64,000 bases of DNA from assembly GCF_963576615.1 (NCBI RefSeq), contig NC_088716.1, forward strand, positions 62,032,228 to 62,096,227. Direction: 5' to 3'. Every line of letters starts with the position of its first letter. Positions within the stretch are counted from its first letter, which is position 1. This document shows positions 45,201 to 64,000 of this stretch, piece by piece. This stretch comes from Watersipora subatra. Taxonomy: Eukaryota > Bryozoa > Gymnolaemata > Cheilostomatida > Watersiporidae. The position numbers and the translations under genes were made by a program. The notes under the pieces are model-generated. The model did not search any database. It saw only the letters and a program-made list of their open reading frames with translations, and had not been told where the DNA came from.

Positions 45201-45207
45201 CCTTTAC

Positions 45208-45930
45208 CTCGCCACACCTCACCTCACCTCACCACACCTCGCCTCACCACACCTCGCCACACCTCGCCACACCTCGCCACACCTCGCCACACCTCGCCAC
45301 ACCTCGCCACACCTCGCCACACCTCGCCACACCTCGCCACACCTCGCCACACCTCGCCACACCTCGCCACACCTCGCCACACCTCGCCACACCTCGCCAC
45401 ACCTCGCCACACCTCGCCACACCTCGCCACACCTCGCCACACCTCGCCACACCTCGCCACACCTCGCCACACCTCGCCACACCTCGCCACACCTCGCCAC
45501 ACCTCGCCACACCTCGCCACACCTCGCCACACCTCGCCACACCTCGCCACACCTCGCCACACCTCGCCACACCTCGCCACACCTCGCCACACCTCGCCAC
45601 ACCTCGCCACACCTCGCCACACCTCGCCACACCTCGCCACACCTCGCCACACCTCGCCACACCTCGCCACACCTCGCCACACCTCGCCACACCTCGCCAC
45701 ACCTCGCCACACCTCGCCACACCTCGCCACACCTCGCCACACCTCGCCACACCTCGCCACACCTCGCCACACCTCGCCACACCTCACTGGGTTACGCCTC
45801 ACCACACCTCACCACGCCTCACCACACCTCACCACGCCTCACCACACCTCACCACGCCTCACCACACCTCACTGGGTTACGCCTCACTGGGTTACGCCTC
45901 ACCACACCTCACTGGGTTACGCCTCACCAA
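45208..45930. repeat. Decamer array ACCTCGCCAC, over 50 perfect copies
   Basis: From about 45255 to 45780 the decamer repeats without a single change. Degenerate CACCTCACCA copies flank it and an ACTGGGTTACGCCTC variant follows. The plus strand has one G per unit and the minus strand is G-rich. Long open frames on both strands (up to 298 codons) are artefacts of a stop-free 10-mer. Confidence 0.97.
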
Positions 45931-47865: not shown

Positions 47866-47997
47866 AGTGTATATAAAGTATGTTATGGATAATCCCGTCA
47901 TACCTGATATAATTCCCTGTCCTTTTAATATCATTACATGTATACGTGATAATGAGTTGACAGTTTTTGTAAAGAGTTGTTTATGCTAATGTTGTAG

Positions 47998-48056
47998 ACG
48001 GAGCACAGACCTTGAGTGTCTGCTCGCCTTATGCAAATGTAGAGGCAGCTGCTTTG
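47998..48056 (+). CDS. ARHGEF10: ARHGEF10-like exon a (59 nt)
   Basis: Acceptor TGTTGTAG, two leading bases, then GAQTLSVCSPYANVEAAAL to donor GTAAGT in phase 0. No family similarity of its own. Accepted because both splice sites are good and its phase joins the next exon; further 5' exons must exist. Confidence 0.6.
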
Positions 48057-51000
48057 GTAAGTTTATGGGTGTCAAAGTTGTTGTCGGATGTTTATATGCA
48101 ATTCATACACAGTTTCCAGCTGTTGACTTGAACTTGAGTGTCACTAACTCGTTGGCTAACTATTTTAGCAACTGACTTAGTCACTGATTGACAGACTTTC
48201 TGAGTGACTGACTGAGTGACTGAGTGACTGAGTAACTGACTGACGACCCACTGGTTGATTGACTGGTAGTCTAACCCAGTTGTATGCAGATTGACTGACG
48301 TATTTGCTGTTACACCAAACAGTTAGCTCATAGACTGACTGCAGTTTGTATATCTAGCCAGCCAGTGAACTATCTCTTGCTTCATTCTCGTTGTCTACTT
48401 CAGCTTTGCTAACGTAGGAAACCGTCACAAGCTCTGTGGGTGCTTATCTCATTATGTACCTCACTGTATTCTCTAGACAACAAGTGCTTCATTATGTACC
48501 TCATTATATTCTCTAGACAACAAGTGCTTCATGATGTACCTCACTGTGTTCTCTAGACAACAAGTGCTTCATTATGTACCTCACTATATTCTCTAGACAA
48601 CAAGTGCTTCATTATGTACCTCACTATATTCTCTAGACAACAAGTGCTTCATGATGTACCTCACTATATTCTCTAGACAACAAGTGCTTCATTATGTACC
48701 TCACTATATTCTCTAAACAACAAGTGCTTCATTATGTACCTCACTATATTCTCTAGACAACAAGTGCTTCATGATGTACCTCACTGTATTCTCTAGACAA
48801 CAAGTGCTTCATTATGTACTTCACTATATTCTCTAGACAACAAGTGCTTCATGATGTACCTCACTATATTCTCTAGACAACAAGTGCTTCATGATGTACC
48901 TCACTATATTCTCTAGACAACAAGTGCTTCATTATGTACCTCACTGTATTCTCTAGACAACAAGTGCTTCATGATGTATCTCACTATATTCTCTAGACAA
49001 CAAGTGCTTCATTATGTACCTCACTATATTCTCTAGACAACAAGTGCTTCATTATGTACCTCACTATATTCTCTAGACAACAAGTGCTTCATTATGTACC
49101 TCACTATATTCTCTAGACCACAAGTGCATTAACTGAGGAGAGTGATGAAGACTCTAGTATTGACAATCCCTTCTACTCCAATTCTGACCTTGTAAGGAAA
49201 TCCACAGTTGTACGGCCAAAGGCCACCGCTTCACCAGCTACTGCGCCTGTTCACGCCAGTCCAACAAATTACTCTCAGCCCACACTATCGGACGATACAA
49301 TGATGAATGAGTTAGCTAACACAATACAGTTGAGGTTGAAAGAAGACGACAACCAGAGAGTGTATGATGACGTACCCCCAATAGACTCTGAGAGCGAGAA
49401 GACTGTCTATGATGTGCTCAACGGTTGTGAAAATTTTGTCGGAGAGATTTATGATGAGGTACCTTCACCAGGTAAAATTTTGCTAGAATGAGTTTTGAAA
49501 TTCTACACGCTTTATGAAGCTTCTGATACAAGAAATAAGAAAATTAAGAAATTGAAAGAATCCAAAAATAGAGATGGATGAAAGGCTATACTGGAATTTA
49601 GCTATATTGGAACGAAGGTTCCTCTTGTTGCTCTAACTAGCTAGCAAAGTGTCAACCAGATTTGTGTTATTTGAGCAAGCGTACAGTTATATGTGTATAT
49701 GGAGTACAGGCTAACCTGAGTTGCATCAGGGTAGGCTATAAGATATGCTTTCTATCAGGCCTGACACTCTCCAAGCATTCTTATGATATTATAGTTAGCA
49801 TGTTGTCCCGATTTCAAGATCCCATTATAACACATTTGTCTACATTTCCTTGTTTTTACTTCAGGGTATGAATGAGTTAAAACTTGCATTTTTAATAAAG
49901 ATCAAGGTGGCAATAATAATTAACATTCATGGCACTAGACTAAGGCCATAGGGCTTTGTATCTAAATCCCTTTTCTTTCCATTTCACTTGTTTGGGATTG
50001 GCTATCTTATAGAGAAAGCTGTTTTTAGATTTCCAGAACAGCATGTAATGAGATTTCTTGCAGTCAGAATTCAGACTTCTATTAATATGGCCAGTCAATT
50101 AAAGGCTTCTAATGTTTATTGTGTGTGTGACACTGAAAGTAATTTCTTCTGTATGGCAGAGGAAGAAGACATAAACGCTAACAACATCACAACATTACTA
50201 GACGAGTCTGCAAGGCGCCTGCAAGCAGGACAAACTAACTCAATGCGTTCAGATGCAGTCTATGAACCAGTTGAACTCAACTATGGGTGTTTTGAAGAAG
50301 AAGACAGCGACAGTGAGTTTGAGTCAATAGAATCACAGGAAGGAGAGAGTATAAGTGTATCTCAGACTAAGGTTTGTAAGTGATATTCATGAAAACATCT
50401 GACGGTATAGTTGAACTTAAATACCTTCTTGTAGTATACCTTCTTGGAGAAGGTAGAACACGAGCAAACATTGAATATTTGTAAAACAAATTCAATGTTT
50501 GCAAACTCATTGCATTGCAGAAAACTTACTTTAGTCTAAATGCACATTTAGTGGCAATTGTTTTGTAATTGTCAATGATGCTATTATAGACATTTCTACA
50601 ATTGTCGACTATTAGTCAGGGGATCATCGACCCCGTTGCAGGTGTTCAGTATCCTCTACTGGAGGTACACGTGCTCAGTATCCTATGAGGACAGGTACTC
50701 AGTATCCTATAGGTACAGGTACTCAGTGTCCTATGGGTACAGGTGCTCAGTATACTATGGGTACAGGTACTCAGTATCCTATGGGTACAGGTACTCAGTG
50801 TCCTATGGGTACAGGTGCTCAGTATCCTTTAGGTGGAGGTACTCAGTGTCCTATGGGTACAGGTACTCAGTATCCTATAGGTACAGGTACTTAGTATCCT
50901 TTAGGTACAGGTACTCAGTGTCCTATGGGTACAGGTACTCAGTGTCCTATGGGTACAGGTACTCAGTATTCTATGGGTACAGGTACTCAGTGTCCTATGG

Positions 51001-54000: not shown

Positions 54001-57000
54001 GTTGTATGGAGGAATATACAATGTATATATAGTTGTATGGAGGAATATACACTGTGTATATAGTTGTATGGAGGAATATACACTGTGAATATAGTTGTAT
54101 GGAGGAATATACAATGTATATATAGTTGTATGGAGGAATATACAATGTATATATAGTTGTATGGAGGAATATACAATGTGTATATAGTTGTATGGAGGAA
54201 TATACACTGTGAATATAGGCGTTTGGAGAAGTATACAATATGAATATAGATAACTTAAAGGATTATATTGCATGAAAATAGGTAGGTACCTGGAAGGATT
54301 ATACCTTGTTATTATTGCACTTTGTGAGTCAACCTGTGAAACTATTTAAACATGAATCTCACAACTCTATTGCATCATTGTAGGAGAAGAGACGGCATGT
54401 CGTGGCGTCTATCATCGAGATAGAGAATTCTTACGTCAGATCTCTTGATATACTTCTTGAGGTAAAGTCTCTATAGCTTATCAGATTTAGCTTGTCCTCT
54501 GAACATTAGTCATATGATATGAGATGAATAGGCTGCTAAAATACGAGGACTGTCATTAAATAAATGTCTTTGTGTATGCGAGACTGAGGCATGTTAGATA
54601 TACGTTTAGGATCTCTGTTTGATTGTGTTTGCGTTGTGTTATAATACAGAATTGAGCAATTGTATATGTATGGGAGGTCAATAGATGTAACAACCTAGAA
54701 TACCAACCTCCAAAACGGGGCTTTGCATCTCTATAAATACATGTACAGTAAGTCGTTGACTTATGACCTTTGCGACATACGCCTACTCGACTTTACGGCC
54801 ACATCCGTGGAAAGGTCAGGCGGCTCAGTGCGAGGCGTACCAAAAGCCATTCTTCGTTATTTTCGTTAAGCGCTTTCGTTATTTTTTCATTAGGGCAAAT
54901 TTTTTCTGCCACACAATAACAATAATTTCTCTCGAAATTAAAATTTAGCAATTTGTGTACTGATTATATACATTATTAAAAGATATACCTTGCTTGCCAT
55001 GGCGAGTTCAGCGTTATCCGTTATAATAAAACGAATTCGCAAACAGAAAAATGATAAAGTTTAAAAATACATACTAAAATTTCCTTCAACTTACGTCCAA
55101 CTCGTCTTACGACTGGCCGGCTGGACCCAGATGCAGTCATAATTCGACGACTTACTGTAATACATGTAGATGATGGCTGGCAACCAGTGACAGAAGGCAT
55201 TTTGAATTATACCTTTATGTCTACATTTTCAATCACGAGGCAGCGGTTGGTAAAGGAAGCCATACCATGGGCTAAAGACTAGCTAGCTTCACCTTACTAA
55301 CTCAAAACTTATGATTTGACTCAACTAGAGAGGACACTTGTCAAGTACTTACTCGTGTCAATGACTCCAGTTGTTACACTCTTCATTCAGTCTCCAGTAG
55401 GAGAAGTAATGAATATACAGACTTAGTCTGTGAAGCCTGAATCATAGGCAGCAGAGCTGTCTGCTGTCTGCATTTGCTGTTTTTATACGATGAGAAGATG
55501 TAGGAGTTCCTCATATTCTAGGCTAGTAGCTCTATAAGACTAAGGCTTGTATATCATGAGCATATTCCTTTATGATCAGACATTCATGTTCATAAGCTGT
55601 ATACACATGAGTTGTTTAAAGTGTTCATTTAGATGTGCATCATGCATCAGCTATGGTGGATGTTTTCTCTCAGTAGAAGCAACTAATGCAGAAAAACCAT
55701 TTATGCTTGATGCATGCACTCTGTTGGTAGTACTACAAGAAGCCTCTACTCAAAGGTGACATCCTGTCTTCAGAGAAAGTAGAGATAATATTTTACAAGC
55801 TAGAAGACATTTTAGATTGCCATTTCATGTTCCGCATTGCTCTCCATGATCGGATGAAAAACTGGGATGAACATGAGGTGATCGGCAGCGAGTTTTCAGA
55901 GGTGATTTTTGATGACAGTATTTAGATCATTTTGCGAAATGGTATTCTGCTTTTAACAGTTTTTGACTTTGTTGTGCAAGCTCTCGCCCTGAAGAGATAA
56001 TTGTTTAGCGCTATCTGCCATCAATAGATTTTCATATATTTGTAGATATCAAAGGACTTTGTCTTGGAAGTCTATAGCGAGTTTATCAACAACTTCATGA
56101 AGGCTACAGAGCTGCTCAAGAAGTCGATGAAAGATAAAACCTTTTCCGAGTTTGTCAATGTACGATGAGTATTAGAATAAAATATAAACATTTTGTATTG
56201 GTATATTTACTTACAGATAGTAATGCTGGGCCTATACAGCAAATAGCCTGCTACCGGATAATGATAAGCAAGATATTATTCATATATTAACACAGCTTTT
56301 AATCTATTTGTGAAATGTTTATTCCAAGCTATAGTATTTTTCCAAATATTAGGCAGGCCCGTATTCCCTGGGGCAGCTGAGCCGCCCCAACTTTTTAGTG
56401 ATTTGCGGCGACCAAGTACTAAGAATTGTAGTTTAAGCTTATTCACTTGGAATTTTCAACAACTAATTTACTAGCAACTAGCGTTCTATATTGTCTCCGT
56501 GGTGATCTCGCCAAATGATTGATCTTGTGAGACTTTATTAAGACTTGGAAACTGAATTTTATTGCTTATAAGTGGGGTGTGAAGAAGACCCCCAAACTTG
56601 CATTTTCCTTATCATATAAAACCTAATCAACGTAGAATCAAAACATCGATGAGGAGCACTATGGGGCAGACTCGTCTAAATAATCTTCTAATATTACACA
56701 TATACAGTATAAAGATGTTGAAATAGATACAGAATCAGTTGTGAAAGATTTCTGCCATGGCCACATTGACAGAACAAGAGCTATTGCAATAAAAAGGTAA
56801 AAGCTCTTGTTCTGTCAATGTTCCTTACAGAAATCTGTAGTGTCATAAGTTTTATATCGTTTGTTGAATAAAGAAAAGTTTTGCATGCCATGAACCATCA
56901 ACAATATATTTATATGGAGATTTAGATGCTTACAATTGATTGCATTTATGCATACTTTGAGGGTTATTGATGCTTAGAAGGTCCAGCGCTTCGGGGTACC

Positions 57001-60000
57001 GCCCTCAACCCCGTTGGGGGCTTACACCGCCCCCAAACCCCCAGGTGTTTATAACTAGTTGCCTAACATTTGCCGCCCTAACTTGCAGCAAGAGAATACA
57101 GGCCTGATATTACTGTAGGTATAAACAACCACTAAATAGCATTTTATGTAAACTCATTGTTAACTAAATATTTATCGTTTCAAACCTAACTTGGTGGTTG
57201 GATGTGGTCTTACAATATTAGCTTTCTCGGTTGTGTAGGCACAGATGAAAGCTTCTAATGACATGGTTGGACCTCATGGTCTCATGATCAAGGTTGTACA
57301 AAGGTTTCCTCAGTACATTCTTCAAATCAAGGTAGGTCAGAAGTTGTGCTCTTTTCTGATCATAGGAGCTTCATACTGTCTGTTGTTCCTTTGTAATGTG
57401 AGTGATGTCTTCACAGATATGTTCGTATACACTGTTTATGTTCATTTACATTGTTGCAGTTTTTGTGATATCTTTTTTGTTGATTAAATATATGCTACAT
57501 TGTGTTTTCATACTTACATGACTAACGGATGATCACAGCTTATTGCGACAGAAGTGAAACTCTCCACTTACTATACACTCTTATCTCTTATCGGTTAATC
57601 TGTTAGGACCTGCTGAAGAATACTCCAACTGATCATGACGATCATCTCAAGCTATACTTGGCTTTGTCAAGGTTAGAAAATGTAGCCTACCAGCTTAATG
57701 TGAAAAAAAGAACAAGCGAAGAGCGCCTCGCTGCCAGGCTCCTTCTCAGCAGGATCAGCAAGTCAAATGAAATGAAGAATCCAGACTCTATTCTCTTTAG
57801 ACAAGATGACGTAAATGAAGTGGTATGGTGAATATCTTCCTTCAAAAACTTAAAAAATGTATGCTTTTTGTTTCAAGTTTTACAAGATGTACTCAGATAG
57901 CTTTACAGGTCAGTAATACAATGCAGTTTGTTTATTGTGATCAAATACTAGTTTGAATGGAGCCATAAAACTTTTTTTATTACAGTAAGATTGATAAAAT
58001 AATTGTAGTGCAGTTTGCGCATCATGCATGATGTTGTCGCTGTTTGTTGCTTTATAAAATGCTAGCCTCCCTTTATCTATGCGCTTCTTCTTGGGCTACA
58101 TAACTATTAAATCACTGATCTAACTTTTGGAAGTTCTATTTTTTTAGCTAGCATCAAATGGAGATGTCCTTGACATACTAATGTAATGAACTCCAATGAT
58201 GAAGCATGATTGCCTCAAGCTTTTTATTAGCGTACTTGTAGCTGATTTGTTTGTCACTATTACTTATATTCAGCATGGCAGCATCTCAACAGACTGGCAG
58301 CATCTCAACAGACATGGCAGCATCTCAACAGACACCATTGTATTATTGAGAATCTTTTTTACTAAAACTTCATATCTAAATTTAAATGGTTTTGTATGAA
58401 CAAAAACTTAACATCATTTTGTGAGACTTTCATGTTATGCATTTTACTGAGTCAACTGCAAGCTACTCAGATTAACTCAGAAAGTTAGGCTAAAGAGTGT
58501 TGTTAAGAGAGAAGCAAATTTTAAAATTTGCTTCTTAAGAATATTATTCTTAACATTTTAGTATCCTGTCAGTATCATTGTGACAAAAATCAAATGTTAC
58601 TTGCAGTTCAAGGTTTTGTAGTTTGAAGCTTTTTAGTTTGTACTAGCTTTTGTAATTACCTGAATAATTTGTACTCAACTTTTTCTAGTTGATGTGATTT
58701 CTACTTAAATCATACTAGTTGATGTGATTTGTACTTAGCTCGTACTAATTGATGTGATTTGTATTTAGCTCTTACTAGCTGATGTGATTTGTACTTGACT
58801 CTTACTAGTTGATGTGATTTGTCCTTGACTCTTACTAGTTGACGTGATTTGTACTTGACTTTTACTAGTTGATGTGATTTGTACTTGACTCTTACTTGTT
58901 GATGTGATTTGTTCTTGACTCTTACTAGTTGATGTGATTTGTACTTGACTCTTACTAGTTGATGTGATTTGTACTTGACTCTTACTAGTTGATGTGATTT
59001 GTTCTTGACTCTTACTAGTTGATGTGACTTGTACTTAACTCATAACAATTGATGTGATTTGTACTTGACTCTTACTAGCTGATGTGATTTGTGCTTAACT
59101 CTTACTAGTTGATGTGATTTGTACTTAACTCATACTAGTTGATGTGATTTGTACTTAGCTCTTACTAGCTGATGTGATTTGTACTTAACTCTTACTAGTT
59201 GATGTGATTTGTACTTAGCTCTTACTAGCTGATGTGATTTGTGCTTAACTCTTACTAGTTGATGTGATTTTTACTTAACTCATACTAGTTGATGTGATTT
59301 GTACTTAGCTCTTACTAGCTGATGTGATTTGTACTTAACTCTTACTAGTTGATGTGATTTGTACTTAGCTCTTACTAGCTGATGTGATTTGTACTTAACT
59401 CTTACTAGTTGATGTGATTTTTACTTAACTCATACTAGTTGATGTGATTTGTATTTAGCTCTTACTAGTTGTAGGAGTTATACAAATTAATAGTCGATTA
59501 GCATTCTTCATGCTAAAGGTTTCCTGTTGCCCTTGTAGACTCACGGTTCTGGTGGAACGAGCAAAGAAAAGCCAAGGCGTCTTCTGCTTTTCAATGACAT
59601 GATTTGCCTTATTAGCCTTGACAACAGGTAAGCATTTCCTTGTCAGCAATATCTCCAAGTTGAACGTACAGCTGTTATTTCTATTTATTAAATTGTGTGA
59701 TACTTAAACCATAACTGTCACGAACAACTTTTATCGTATTTTCTAGGTAAATCAGACACGCTGATTCCGATTTTGTACTCAAAATAAAGATTAGTCCACT
59801 AACCTTCAAAGTCATTTAAGCTTTTTTAAAGCGTTTCAATATCCGTTTCAAAAACAACACGATCGGCATTACAAGCTCCGCCCATAAATATGTGACGAAA
59901 CCTAGCTTTTTTAGAAACGGAAGTTGGGAATGTTTAGACCGATTTAGAATAATAGAGATGAGTGTCTTAAAACCCATTATTATCTAAATCCAGCCTGTAA

Positions 60001-63000
60001 AATAGTTTCAGTTTTTTATGAAACGGATATAAACTATTTAAAATTGCTCGCAGCTTGTTACATGACGTTTAAATAGGCTGGACGCCGAGAAAAATGAGCT
60101 CAAAAAGCACGGTTTTATCACGAGCTAGCGTTGTTATCGCGCTTTTTAAATATGCAATGCTAAATAGCTTATCTACCTTTCAGAAAAGACTGATATTATT
60201 TTTAAGGCTGAATTTAGATATTAATGGATTTTAAAACACCCATCTCTATTATTCTAAATCGGTCTAAACATCCCTACGTAACTTCTGTTCCTAAAAAGCT
60301 AGGTTACGTCAAGTATTTATGGGCGGAGCTTGTTATGCCGATCGTGTTGTTTTCGAGACCGATATTAAAACGCTATAAAAAGTTCTTCATTACTCTGAAA
60401 GTTAGTGGCCTAATCTTTATTTTGATTACAAAATCGGAATCAGCATGTCTGATTTACCTAGTAAATATGATAAAAGTTGTTCGTGGCAGTTATGGTTTAA
60501 AATACGAAGAACGAACCCGGTAATTAATTTAAGACATTTTACGGCACAAATGTTCTGTGCGATTTGTTTTTGTGCTGTTTTCTGCATGGCGAGATTGCTC
60601 ACAGTATCACTTGACTAAAACAAAACTTGAAAGCTCAAACTCGAGCTGCTACCCTCTAATAAAATACTAAAACAGTGCAATGTTATTAACTTGATCATTG
60701 CAATTATTTTATTTGTAAAAAAAGTGAAAACAAAACGAACTCTCTTTAGGGTTTTAAACTGTCACTGGTGTTCCTCACACCTCCCTTTCTAGAAAACAAA
60801 ATTTATCAACAACTACCAAAATTCAAATAGAACAACTAATTCAACATCAGACAAGTTTTAGGTAACACAAAAATTTTTAGTTTCAACTCTTTTAAATACA
60901 CTACTTATCTGCCTAAAATACAAAATACACTACTTACCTGCTCTTGTTTCGATATTTTTTTCGCAGATCTGGTATTCAAACATTAGAAAAGATTCAGCTC
61001 AAATGGTCATGTCCAGTGCGAGACGTGGAATTTCATGAAAGTGGAGCCTCTCCTAACACCAACTCATTGGTACATAGTGCCTCAGGCGCAGTGCTCATAC
61101 AGAGCAGCACTATAAAACAGAGGAAAATTGCAGAATCAAGTGAGTTGCTGCTAACTACTACATTTTAGCTGCCGTTCTGGTGTTTCTAATGCTTCCCAAT
61201 CTTTTACGACATGATTATCTAACAGAAACAGTATGTAGTTAGTCAATAATTAATATAGGTAATAGCTAACGGACAGGGTAGGTAGTTAGTCAATAATTAA
61301 TATAGGTAATAGCTAACGGACAGGGTAGGTAGTTAGTCAATAATTAATATAGGTAACAGCTAATGGACAGGGTAGGTAGTTAGTCTATAATTAAGATAGG
61401 TAACAGCTAATGGACAGGGTAGGTAGTTAGTCTATAATTAAGATAGGTAACAGCTAATGGACAGGGTAGGTAGTTAGTCTATAATTAAGATAGGTAACAG
61501 CTAACAGATAGGGTAGGTAGTTAGTCATTAATTTATATAGGTAACAGCTAACGGACAGGGTAGGTAGCTAGTCAATAATTAATATAGGTAACAGCTAACA
61601 GACAGGGTAGGTAGTTAGTCAATAATTAATATAGGTAACAGCTAATGGACAGGGTAGGTAGTTAGTCAACAATTAATATAGGTAACAGCTAATGGACAGG
61701 GTAGGTAGTTAGTCTATAATTAAGGTAGGTAACAGCTAACATATAGGGTAGGTAGTTAGTCAATAATTTATATAGGTAACAATAACGGATAGGGTAGGTA
61801 GTTAGTCAATAATTAAGATAGGTAACAGCTAACGGACAGGGTAGGTAGTTGTGCAATAATTAATATAGGTAACAGCTAATGGACAGGGTAGGTAGTTAGT
61901 CAATAATTAAGATAGGTAACAGCTAATGGACAGGGTAGGTAGTTAGTAAATAATTAAGATAGGTAACAGCTAACGGACAGGGTAGGTAGTTAGTCAATAA
62001 TTAATATAGGTAACAGCTAACGGACAGGGTAGGTAGTTAGTCAATAATTAAAATAGGTAACAGCTAACGGACAGGGTAGGTAGTTAATCAATCTATAATA
62101 TAGATTGACTAACTACCTACCCTGTCTGTTTGTATATTATATAAATCTCAAAGTTGGTCTGTATGTACTTGTGTAGTTTGGTATGTCAAGTTAAAGCTAA
62201 TAAAACCTTGGAATGAAGAATCCGTATCGCGGAAGGTTAGATCTTGTCAACATGCTCAACAGATCAATCTCTTGGCATGTCAGTATGAATTATTCATATT
62301 TTGCCAGGGTCCTTATCACTCTTACATCAAATAGGTTTTTGTACTCTATGATTGCAAAAAAAGTAACTTTTGTTATTATTAAAGTTGAAACGTAGATGTC
62401 TGTATAGCTTGGCATCTATAAACAAACTGTTACAGATGTGACAAATCAAACTACAGCTGCCATTCATAGAGAGCTTGATGACCTCATGCATGATCAAACA
62501 ATTCTCGCTCAAATCATGAGCTTGACCTCCTCCCTCAAGCAGGAATATCAGGTAATATCCTTGTGAATATGGTCAACCATAAGACAGTCAATTTAGTATC
62601 ATATCATTAGGTTGCAAAAGACTCACGTATAGCGGTTGAGGACTCTTGCCACCCTCTTGCAACTCTCTTGCAACTCTCTTGCCACTAATTGCAAACCTAA
62701 CTCTCCTCTATCTTTTCACCTCAGCTGCAGCATAGCAACCACACGCTTCTTTCATATAAAAATTGGGTTTTTGAGCTTGGATACTGAAACTTGTGGGTTT
62801 ACAAAGATTTTGGGCTCCAATAAGTTTTCACAAACATAAATGTTGAGCAAAGCATTTGATAGAGTAAAAACGACCTTCTTTTATAGATATTATCAGACTA
62901 CTATAAGGTATTCACATTTTATTAACTAGAGTACAAATGATATATCTAATATGTTTTGGTGCCTTGACTATTTGCTTTATGCAGTTTCTGTAAAAGACAC

Positions 63001-64000
63001 ATAAGCTTTAGGTTAGTTGTGCTGCAAACTATTTTCCTGTTAGTTTTCTTGACTTACGAAACTCGACTAAATGATTATAGCTAAAAAGAAAGACTTGCAG
63101 TTTTAATTTCAAAGTGTTGAACTACTCAGTATTCTCTGGAGTCTTGTTACTTCCCAAGTGTTGAACTACTCAGTATTCTCTGGTGTCTTGTTACTTCCAA
63201 AGTGTTGAACTACTCAGTATTCTCTGGTGTCTTGTTACTTCCCAAGTGTTGAACTACTCAATATTCTCTGGAGTCTTGTTACTTCCAAAGTGTTGAACTA
63301 CTCAGTATTCTCTGAAGTCTTGTTACTTCCAAAGTGTTGAACTACTCAGTATTCTTTGGTGTCTTGTTACTTCCAAAGTGTTGAACTACTCAGTATTCTC
63401 TGGTGTCTTGTTACTTCCCAAGTGTTGAACTACTCAGTATTCTCTAGAGTCTTGTTACTTCCAAAGTGTTGAACTACTCAGTATTCTCTGGTGTCTTGTT
63501 ACTTCCAAAGTGTTGAACTACTCAGTATTCTCTGGAGTCTTGTTACTTCCCAAAGTGTTGAACTACTCAATATTCTCTGGTGTCTTGTTACTTCCAAAGT
63601 GTTGAACTACTCAGCATTCTCTGGAGTCTTGTTACTTCCCAAGTGTTGAACTACTCAGCATTCTCTGGAGTCTTGTTACTTCCCAAAGTGTTGAACTACT
63701 CAATATTCTCTAGAGTCTTGTTACTTCCAAAGTGTTGAACTACTCAGTATTCTCTGGAGTCTTGCTACTTCCAAAGTGTTGAACTACTCAGTATTCTCTG
63801 GAGTTTTGTTACTTCCAAAGTGTTGAACTACTCAGCATTTTTGGAATCCTGTTATTTACAAAGTACTAAACTGTTTTTATTTGCAGGGTTTGAATGCAGA
63901 TCAACTACAAGACCAGCTTAAGAATATACAGACATCAATTCGAATCCGAGATGAGCAGCTCCAGATGGTAGACAGCTGCCTCATATGTCTTTCTTACATC
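47998..64000 (+). CDS. ARHGEF10: ARHGEF10-type Rho guanine-nucleotide exchange factor (13 exons seen, 3' end outside window)
   Basis: Co-orthologue of ARHGEF10/ARHGEF10L, a DH-domain GEF that loads GTP onto Rho GTPases. Exons: 47998-48056, 49117-49471, 50160-50371, 52104-52250, 54384-54461, 55731-55901, 56046-56159, 57239-57331, 57607-57822, 59539-59627, 60967-61139, 62436-62551 and 63887 to beyond 64000, all phase-compatible. Seen: an acidic N-terminal region with VYDDVPP, IYDEVPS and SEFESIESQ (IYDDV and SEFESYEEQ in human ARHGEF10); DH domain from RRHVVASIIEIENSYVRSLD through HFMFRIALHDRMKNWDEHE and the signature HGLMIKVVQRFPQYILQIKD (LMMKPIQRFPQFILLLQD in human); then a PH-like region with RRLLLFNDMICL and LKWSCPV. 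The C-terminal WD-like propeller lies downstream. The start codon is not certain. Confidence 0.93.
48445..49121. repeat. 40-bp minisatellite containing a 3' splice site, 17 copies
   Basis: Unit TGCTTCATTATGTACCTCAC plus TATATTCTCTAGACAACAAG. Each unit repeats the acceptor TATTCTCTAG and the first exon bases (ACAACAAGTGC). The last copy (CTCTAGACCACAAGTGC) is the working acceptor at 49116. One copy (about 48711) has lost its AG (CTCTAAAC). Confidence 0.95.
49117..49471 (+). CDS. ARHGEF10: ARHGEF10-like exon b (acidic N-terminus with YDDV motifs)
   Basis: The acceptor TTCTCTAG is the last copy of the 40-bp array. 118 codons plus one base to CAG|GTAAAA. TTSALTEESDEDSSIDNPFY starts it, then VYDDVPPIDSESEKTVYDVL and IYDEVPSPG. 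Human ARHGEF10 has similar IYDDV motifs in its N-terminal half. Confidence 0.85.
50160..50371 (+). CDS. ARHGEF10: ARHGEF10-like exon c
   Basis: Acceptor GTATGGCAG, donor AAG|GTTTGT. Two bases complete a Glu codon, then 70 codons. AVYEPVELNYGCFEEEDSDS and EFESIESQEGE match the LEYGWSSSEFESYEEQ part of human ARHGEF10. Confidence 0.85.
50642..51490. repeat. 24-bp minisatellite, about 35 copies, open in all plus frames
   Basis: Unit GTACAGGTACTCAGTATCCT plus ATGG. As 24 is divisible by 3 and the unit has few stops, all plus frames stay open over long stretches, giving YGYRYSVS or TGTQYPMG octapeptide repeats. Intron between ARHGEF10-like exons c and d. Confidence 0.95.
52104..52250 (+). CDS. ARHGEF10: ARHGEF10-like exon d
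   Basis: 49 codons, phase 0, acceptor GCTTTAG, donor CAG|GTTTCT. A Lys/Asn-rich start is followed by DKHPCPSLPDCPEELTEKQ, matching DCKHPEAILTPMPEGLSQQQ just before the DH domain of human ARHGEF10. Confidence 0.87.
52335..52735. repeat. 24-bp minisatellite, about 16 copies
   Basis: Unit about CTAGTTGTAACACTGATTGA plus CTCA. ARHGEF10-like intron after exon d. Confidence 0.92.
53533..53775. repeat. About 44-bp minisatellite with internal ATGTCT hexamers, 6 copies
   Basis: The unit contains TTGACAGCTATAGGTCCACT and a variable number of ATGTCT hexamers. Confidence 0.9.
53825..54222. repeat. 31-bp minisatellite, about 13 copies
   Basis: Unit about TATAGTTGTATGGAGGAATA plus TACACTGTGAA. Minus-strand open frames here (up to 155 codons) are artefacts. 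Confidence 0.93.
54384..54461 (+). CDS. ARHGEF10: ARHGEF10-like exon e (start of DH domain)
   Basis: 26 codons: EKRRHVVASIIEIENSYVRS plus LDILLE. This is the first DH helix (CR1), comparable to SVVDSEKNYVDALKRILE. Acceptor CATTGTAG, donor GAG|GTAAAG. Confidence 0.92.
54746..55157. mobile_element. TA-flanked TIR element (412 bp, pogo/mariner-like MITE)
   Basis: Left end CAGTAAGTCGTTGACTTATG and inverted right end CAGTAAGTCGTCGAATTATG differ at three or four positions and are flanked by TA on both sides. No transposase. Located in the ARHGEF10-like intron after exon e. Confidence 0.7.
55731..55901 (+). CDS. ARHGEF10: ARHGEF10-like exon f (DH domain)
   Basis: 57 codons: YYKKPLLKGDILSSEKVEII, then LEDILDCHFMFRIALHDRM and NWDEHEVIGSEFSE. 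It aligns with KPLSEMEPKVLSERKLKTVF and ILQCHSLFQIALASRVSEWD of human ARHGEF10. Acceptor TTGGTAG, donor GAG|GTGATT. Confidence 0.95.
56046..56159 (+). CDS. ARHGEF10: ARHGEF10-like exon g (DH domain)
   Basis: 38 codons: ISKDFVLEVYSEFINNFMKA and the rest to FSEFVN. Matches FSKSMVLDAYSEYVNNFSTA and PAFLEFLK in human. Confidence 0.95.
56354..57116. mobile_element. hAT-like non-autonomous element (763 bp) with internal hairpin
   Basis: Termini CAGGCCCGTATTCCCT and, inverted, CAGGCCTGTATTCTCT. Flanks ATATTAGG (56346-56353) and ATATTACT (57117-57124) are an 8-bp duplication with two changes. A large inverted repeat lies inside at 56747-56838. ARHGEF10-like intron after exon g. Confidence 0.7.
56747..56838. 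repeat. Inverted repeat inside the hAT-like element
   Basis: ACATTGACAGAACAAGAGCT is exactly inverted after a 19-base loop, and AGATTTCTG pairs further out. Confidence 0.85.
57239..57331 (+). CDS. ARHGEF10: ARHGEF10-like exon h (DH CR3 signature)
   Basis: 31 codons, AQMKASNDMVGPHGLMIKVV then QRFPQYILQIK. The QRFPQYIL segment is the conserved long helix of DH domains. The usual Pro of KPIQR is Val here (KVVQR). An AG six bases downstream gives an alternative start lacking Ala-Gln. Confidence 0.95.
57607..57822 (+). CDS. ARHGEF10: ARHGEF10-like exon i (end of DH domain)
   Basis: 72 codons, phase 0. DLLKNTPTDHDDHLKLYLAL, then LENVAYQLNVKKRTSEERL, match DMLKNTSKGHPDRLPLQMAL and LETLAEKLNERKRDADQ in human. 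Confidence 0.95.
58680..59470. repeat. 30-bp minisatellite, about 26 copies
   Basis: Unit CTTACTAGTTGATGTGATTT plus GTACTTGACT. Higher-order alternation (TTAGCT / TTAACT) is visible in the second half. It ends about 70 bp before exon j. Confidence 0.95.
59539..59627 (+). CDS. ARHGEF10: ARHGEF10-like exon j (PH-like region)
   Basis: THGSGGTSKEKPRRLLLFND then MICLISLDN, in place of KTKERRVFMLNDVLMCAT. Acceptor CCCTTGTAG, donor AG|GTAAGC. Confidence 0.92.
59704..60500. mobile_element. Foldback element with about 350-bp inverted arms
   Basis: The left arm TTAAACCATAACTG is the inverse of the right end CAGTTATGGTTTAA. The arms continue (CTAGGTAAATCAGACA, GCTGATTCCGATTTTG) to a central loop near 60100. 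No coding frame and no clear target-site duplication. ARHGEF10-like intron after exon j. Confidence 0.75.
60967..61139 (+). CDS. ARHGEF10: ARHGEF10-like exon k (PH-like region)
   Basis: Acceptor TTTTTTCGCAG, donor A|GTGAGT. LEKIQLKWSCPVRDVEFHES matches SQRYLLKWSVPLGHVDAIEY in human ARHGEF10. Confidence 0.92.
61231..62100. repeat. 47-bp minisatellite, about 18 copies
   Basis: The unit contains TTAGTCAATAATTAATATAG and GTAACAGCTAACGGACAG. It starts about 90 bp after exon k and ends in a hairpin. Confidence 0.94.
62070..62126. repeat. Hairpin formed by an inverted array unit
   Basis: GACAGGGTAGGTAGTTAATC and eight more bases are directly followed by their inverse, with one mismatch. The last array unit therefore has an inverted partial copy. 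Confidence 0.9.
62436..62551 (+). CDS. ARHGEF10: ARHGEF10-like exon l
   Basis: Acceptor CTGTTACAG, donor CAG|GTAATA. HRELDDLMHDQTILAQIMSL then TSSLKQEYQ, comparable to LLHDLNVIGQITQLIGNLKG in human. Confidence 0.92.
63106..63840. repeat. 44-bp minisatellite, about 17 copies
   Basis: The unit contains AAGTGTTGAACTACTCAGTA and CTTGTTACTTCC. It ends about 45 bp before the acceptor of the last exon. Confidence 0.94.
63887..64000 (+). CDS. ARHGEF10: ARHGEF10-like exon m (runs off the window)
   Basis: Acceptor TTTATTTGCAG; open to the last base. GLNADQLQDQLKNIQTSIRI then RDEQLQMVDSCLI match LNQSVAHDWTSGLQRLI and KKEDEIRAADCCRIQ in human. Confidence 0.9.

Follow-up and report, generated by a model that had tools for sequence, protein, structure and literature searches.

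A 40-bp minisatellite across a predicted intron-exon boundary of an ARHGEF10/17-like gene in Watersipora subatra

The gene and its predicted exons

The window, i.e., the whole stretch analysed (64,000 nucleotides of Watersipora subatra, contig NC_088716.1, positions 62,032,228 to 62,096,227; coordinates below are positions in this stretch unless a contig is given), contains on its plus strand a tandem array situated between two predicted exons, as well as several further parts of what appears to be the same gene:

48005-48056, plus strand: predicted exon a, left in phase 0 at the donor GTAAGT after 48056
48449-49127, plus strand: 40-bp minisatellite of 17 copies (TRF and register), reaching from the end of the intron 11 bases into exon b
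48437-48476, plus strand: diverged first copy (by register), with GTGCTTATCTCATT where the other copies have GTGCTTCATT
48677-48716, plus strand: unit that has lost the acceptor AG (by register; CTCTAA at its end)
49077-49116, plus strand: last unit of the intron, carrying at 49115-49116 the AG of the predicted working acceptor
49117-49127, plus strand: exonic part of the last copy, ACCACAAGTGC
49117-49471, plus strand: predicted exon b, entered in phase 0, donor after 49471
50160-50371, plus strand: predicted exon c of the same gene; 3' end uncertain, with a better-scoring GT after 50312
55731-55922, plus strand: open frame with a RhoGEF match (Pfam, E 3.3e-6, just above the curated cut-off)
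56046-56165, plus strand: open frame with a weak RhoGEF match (E 0.001, under the curated cut-off)
57607-57828, plus strand: open frame with a weak RhoGEF match (E 0.0065, under the curated cut-off)
60967-61139, plus strand: predicted exon with a PH_19 match (E 2.4e-5, just above the curated cut-off)

In the PDB, the frame at 57607-57828 additionally matches intersectin and further exchange factors, though weakly (best E 0.0034). Beyond the window (locus L007), two frames match WD40_2, with E values of 5.2e-5 (just above the cut-off) and 0.00059; a whole-genome search for WD40_2 lists a single match, on C10, and does not include the exons of this gene, which matched only weakly when scanned directly. 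RhoGEF, PH_19 and WD40_2 are hence all represented, each by a match just above its curated cut-off, in a combination characteristic of the ARHGEF10/ARHGEF17 type, and by these matches the gene looks like a member of that family. An earlier note, made from the letters alone, had called the gene ARHGEF10-like; what the domain matches, barely above their cut-offs, support is membership in the ARHGEF10/17 family. The wording of exon b may resemble the acidic N-terminus of human ARHGEF10; a Pfam match of its own was not found for this exon.

From 49117, immediately preceded by a TAG, the frame of exon b stays open over 118 codons until the donor after 49471. Exon a lies in a frame (47973-48128) that is in phase 0 at the donor after 48056, such that the two exons join in frame; this fits the donor position proposed in the earlier note. 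No acceptor scoring above 2 was found in frame for exon a. Concerning the start of exon b, eleven AGs are present between 49085 and 49222, among which the candidate start 49117 ranks first with 1.5, the other ten reaching at most -1.9 (acceptor scores from a generic matrix). By the same measure the acceptor at 49116 is middling, its score being reached by 6.7% of the plus-strand AGs in 144 kb (8,665 in all). Its moderate score and the lack of a Pfam match would both be expected if exon b were unreal or started elsewhere and the array were an ordinary intronic minisatellite with a chance AG. We regard this as highly improbable, since no better AG lies nearby, the exons join in frame and the open frame begins exactly at the acceptor, being the third longest in a scan of open frames at array edges (67 arrays, 268 readings), where the longest one passes through an adjacent array.

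Sixteen other array-edge readings were inspected by eye, and only that at 63103-63864 seemed to lie next to a real exon. At this place (63103-63886), a 44-bp array ends 22 bases short of the predicted acceptor 63886; a degenerate part-copy may continue from the array towards this acceptor. It is possibly a decayed boundary array. An attempt to recognise exons by codon usage (window, flanks and random stretches) was dropped, as the separation was poor and 13 of 60 known kinase exons scored 0.

Structure of the tandem array

In TRF, the array extends from 48449 to 49127, with 17.0 copies at a period of 40, 95% matches and a score of 1246. Copies of the acceptor are situated at 49116-40n, with 16 positions upstream of the predicted working site; AG is kept in 15 of these and has changed to AA in the remaining one (n=10, 48716). 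The last copy passes the predicted boundary at 49117 by 11 bases (ACCACAAGTGC vs ACAACAAGTGC upstream), such that the tandem repeat spans the exon-intron boundary as predicted; the exonic part differs from the other copies by a single base (ACC vs ACA), which leaves the amino acid unchanged. Both the 40-bp unit, carrying the acceptor together with the first bases of exon b, and the sixteen upstream acceptor copies, one of them devoid of AG, had been described in the earlier note and are borne out by TRF and by the register.

The 40 bases of the last intronic unit recur without any difference in five of the 15 full upstream units (n=1, 2, 9, 12 and 13). Every copy possesses its own pyrimidine-rich stretch and AG-free zone, and the unit carries, besides the acceptor AG, a further AG at unit positions 7-8, whereby the spacing of AGs alternates between 32 and 8 nt. 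An additional ATCT is found only in the first copy, and ACC only after the last one; since both are missing from the copies between, the edges of the array, i.e., the first and last copies, have escaped homogenisation. The motif GTGC occurs at the left edge of the array, at each repeat junction and, at the right edge, within the exon. Searching the 784 Mb genome (with contigs C1-C11 of 46-79 Mb) for 80 bases of the unit yielded this locus only (very common words being skipped and only the best candidates scored), and a dispersed satellite or mobile repeat was accordingly rejected. COX1 gave no match in the assembly.

Directly behind a 47-bp array at 61231-62130, part of the unit is repeated in inverted orientation (ATTGACTAACTACCTACCCTGTC), so that the array end could fold back. 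At 45206-45870, (ACCTCGCCAC)n is present in 66 copies with a strong GC skew, lying within open frames of up to 320 codons and not being a gene by itself. A 27-bp array of 141 copies extends over 3.8 kb at L010 (98542-102351 on the scale of the window).

Reading frame from the upstream acceptor copies

Read in phase 0, all 16 upstream acceptor positions lead to a stop after 5-39 codons, namely after 19 codons (n=1), 31 codons (n=2), 5 codons (six copies) or 39 codons (eight copies). According to the earlier note, three units meet TAG, one or two units shift the frame, and only the last copy joins the frame of the exon. This is correct; in addition, six copies meet a stop well ahead of the acceptor's own TAG, namely a TGA created by a CATGATG variant. 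The in-frame stops also led us to reject the array as a coding repeat. Because the last copy is the only one joining exon b in frame, we infer that it is the acceptor in use, with exon b predicted to start at 49117.

The upstream copies might be conceived as poison acceptors, whose regulated use would yield a stop-bearing message and thereby set the protein level, with array length as the dial. The stops from 16 of 16 upstream positions would suit such a role, as would the human IFI6 gene, where repeat units are reported to serve as splice donors (PMC4526556). However, the stops are largely due to the TAG before the exon and to a unit length of 40, which is not a multiple of three, and are therefore no sign of selection, and lancelet arrays of a comparable kind are reported without aberrant mRNAs (PMC3087553, PMC3902484); we consider a regulatory role of this sort extremely improbable.

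Origin of the array

Tandem duplications of exon-intron boundaries are known from lancelets as mirages (Adh3, troponin C, globins BflGb6 and BflGb9, and PGBD5; PMC3087553, PMC3902484). The array of W. subatra is probably a mirage as well, i.e., a minisatellite seeded by tandem duplication of an existing intron-exon boundary. An existing acceptor boundary would have been duplicated in tandem and the copies then expanded through slippage or unequal exchange; the simplest history would begin with a single 44-bp duplication across the acceptor, followed by a loss of 4 bases and then by expansion. The presence of GTGC at both edges and at the internal junctions is as expected if the first duplication, by slippage, used this motif. 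The growth of a minisatellite from a splice site, as proposed in the earlier note, is supported, short of proof, by the single-locus unit and the GTGC edges. Points against the mirage reading are the lack of a Pfam match for exon b, the moderate acceptor score, the weak acceptor of exon a, and the absence of this gene's exons from the whole-genome WD40_2 listing.

Arrays are plentiful in introns, covering 12,269 of the 64,000 window bases (19.2%) and 23.7 of 200 kb elsewhere (11.9%, ranging from 0 to 46% among 10-kb pieces; 80 kb of this sample border on the window). The array might accordingly have been born inside the intron and have supplied the acceptor only later, its edge having entered the exon and the splice site having shifted to the last copy. 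This order of events is unlikely in our opinion: a local unit with AG and bases continuous with the exon is more simply explained if the acceptor came first, and several of the arrays at kinase genes described below likewise hold bases of the kinase exons. The best reading is a passive minisatellite on a pre-existing acceptor, and we find no evidence of a function of its own.

Chance or recurrence

The window contains 23 arrays, whose unit lengths sum to 684 bp. From uniform births, 0.2-0.4 overlaps with splice junctions would be expected (the number of junctions in the window being guessed at 20-36), so that a single boundary array is unsurprising. While the repetition at the ARHGEF10/17 gene is no chance product, its meeting a splice site may be one.

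A sample of 60 loci was drawn from 142 protein-kinase exon matches. Of these loci, 20 were hand-picked and 40 were taken largely as they came in the list, the latter having open frames no longer than 250 aa; internal stops were absent from all 60. Junctions were set by eye from the frame and GT/AG, aided by known kinase sequences; a few loci share a gene. At a TRF score of at least 60, 35 distinct arrays were found (the array common to L058 and L087 being counted once), seven of which include a junction of the primary exon: five at donors (L032, L047, L054, L055, L087) and two at acceptors (L050, L076). Two more, both at L044, are situated at donors of neighbouring exons. In all of these (7 primary and 2 neighbouring exons), it is the exon-proximal copy that is joined to the coding sequence. 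The L032 array begins exactly at the intron GT and contains no exonic base. TCAG/GTAAGT (slash at the boundary) is present five times at L044 and TTGTTGCAG three times at L076. At L055, AACAGATTGG stands in 14 repeat copies in place of the exon's AACAG/GTTGG, such that these decoys have lost GT; in the other kinase boundary arrays many, though not all, copies retain the splice signal.

Two of these loci show further peculiarities. At L044 (C7:65264787-65266184), two donors of one kinase gene, presumably PRKD-like, each bear an array (38 bp x 5 and 21 bp x 8.7). At L055 (C3:66857807-66858940), the change from GT to AT is common to all fourteen copies while the exon copy keeps GT; this one change seems to have spread through the array.

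As a birth rate, we took the unit lengths of the remaining arrays in the same 60 kb of flanks (28, 21 or 15 arrays) and applied it to 120 boundaries. At score cut-offs of 60, 100 and 150, this yields 1.64, 1.38 and 1.03 expected boundary arrays, compared to seven observed (Poisson probabilities, calculated post hoc, of 0.0015, 0.0006 and 0.0001). Boundary arrays hence recur and look common in this genome.

Genome-wide words were counted as three copies with gaps of 15-45, against the same word reversed; the word windows are not independent, and the counts are silent on whether the arrays touch exons. The donor word CAGGTAAGT gave 443 word windows vs 68 for the reversed word (singles 8,135 vs 3,358; 2.7-fold when normalised), at least 95 of them from one array on C1. 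For the second donor word, AAGGTAAGT, the counts were 801 vs 23 (singles 12,144 vs 10,838; about 31-fold by word windows); the first 100 rows, reaching to 56.4 Mb of C1, can be assigned to about 12 separate arrays, with 51 rows falling to a single one. The acceptor word TTTTGCAG was found in 52 word windows at 14 loci vs 6 for the control, the single word being itself 2.4 times commoner (71,551 vs 29,568). The counts agree with recurrence, strongly for one donor word and modestly for the other. Donor-like units in 62 arrays (window, flanks and random stretches) numbered 9 vs 5 reversed at score 3, 5 vs 2 at score 4 and 1 vs 2 at score 5, i.e., no clear excess was found in this set. The C1 array (G000, C1:3480598-3483294) that yields at least 95 word windows is a very long 28-bp donor-word array, in which every printed unit contains TACAGGTAAGT.

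Taken further, minisatellites might be born preferentially at splice junctions in W. subatra, such that several percent of junctions, donors most of all, would lie at the edge of an array of their own near-copies; we put this forward tentatively, being more inclined to doubt than to believe it. If true, thousands of serially duplicated splice sites, identical but for their position, would be available in this genome as a natural library. Were boundary arrays as frequent as the kinase sample suggests, many natural experiments could be read from one RNA data set, with relevance also for intron gain and for the reasons why tandem duplications start at particular places.

Choice of the splice site

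According to PMC1431707, which also names exceptions, the 3' splice site is the first AG downstream of the branch point, and the branch point is found within the AG-free zone or some 15 nt upstream of this zone. As AG recurs at intervals of 32 and 8 nt in the array, the branch point for 49116 must by this rule be sought in roughly the final 50 bases of the intron, which are repeated throughout. Since the branch point region is repeated too, the working site is not marked by its own sequence; and as the 40-nt units of five upstream copies are identical to its own, it differs from these only in its position and in what follows. The earlier note's remark that the pyrimidine-rich tract of each unit bears on the scanning for AG is a fair one, each copy having both tract and AG-free zone.

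The exon-proximal copy would be the one used. Its likeliest selector may be exon definition from exon b, which works in favour of the acceptor closest by; a message spliced to one of the upstream copies would contain a stop and would probably be degraded. With identical branch-point region, tract and AG in the predicted site and in several upstream copies, only position and the downstream exon differ, and RNA reads from such arrays would tell apart exon definition, the order of transcription, and a linear search for AG.

Comparison with known systems

The IFI6 (6-16) minisatellite (Turri 1995, cited in PMC4526556) likewise supplies repeated splice sites, but in human, on the donor side, and with units used as alternative donors. 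In human duplicated genes, tandem repeats situated at exon-intron boundaries, with units of about 30 bp, alter splicing, yet these belong to segmental duplications, have 4 units on average, and are tied to novel introns (PMC2812944). A published single duplication of an intron-exon boundary copied the branch site, tract and acceptor, as is the case here; unlike the present array, it was one duplication that led to a new intron. No survey of boundary minisatellites was among the literature matches listed, which were mostly from non-subscription sources.

The lancelet mirages (PMC3087553 and PMC3902484, with lancelets as the only hosts) are the most similar: They, too, are minisatellite-like tandem duplications of an intron-exon boundary, in which many units carry AG/GT and copies at the edges escape homogenisation. 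The BflGb6 mirage lies on the same side, comprising the 3' end of an intron and the 5' part of an exon, and the units of the Adh3 mirage (10-72 bp) bracket the 40-bp unit found here. A difference exists in copy number, as the two BflGb6 haplotypes contain 6 and 3 copies of 150-160 bp, compared to 17 copies in W. subatra. In lancelets, splicing is reported, with RT-PCR, to be undisturbed and without aberrant mRNA. Judged by its anatomy, the W. subatra array is a mirage and belongs to a known kind; what may be new is the scale and the bias of boundary arrays in this species.
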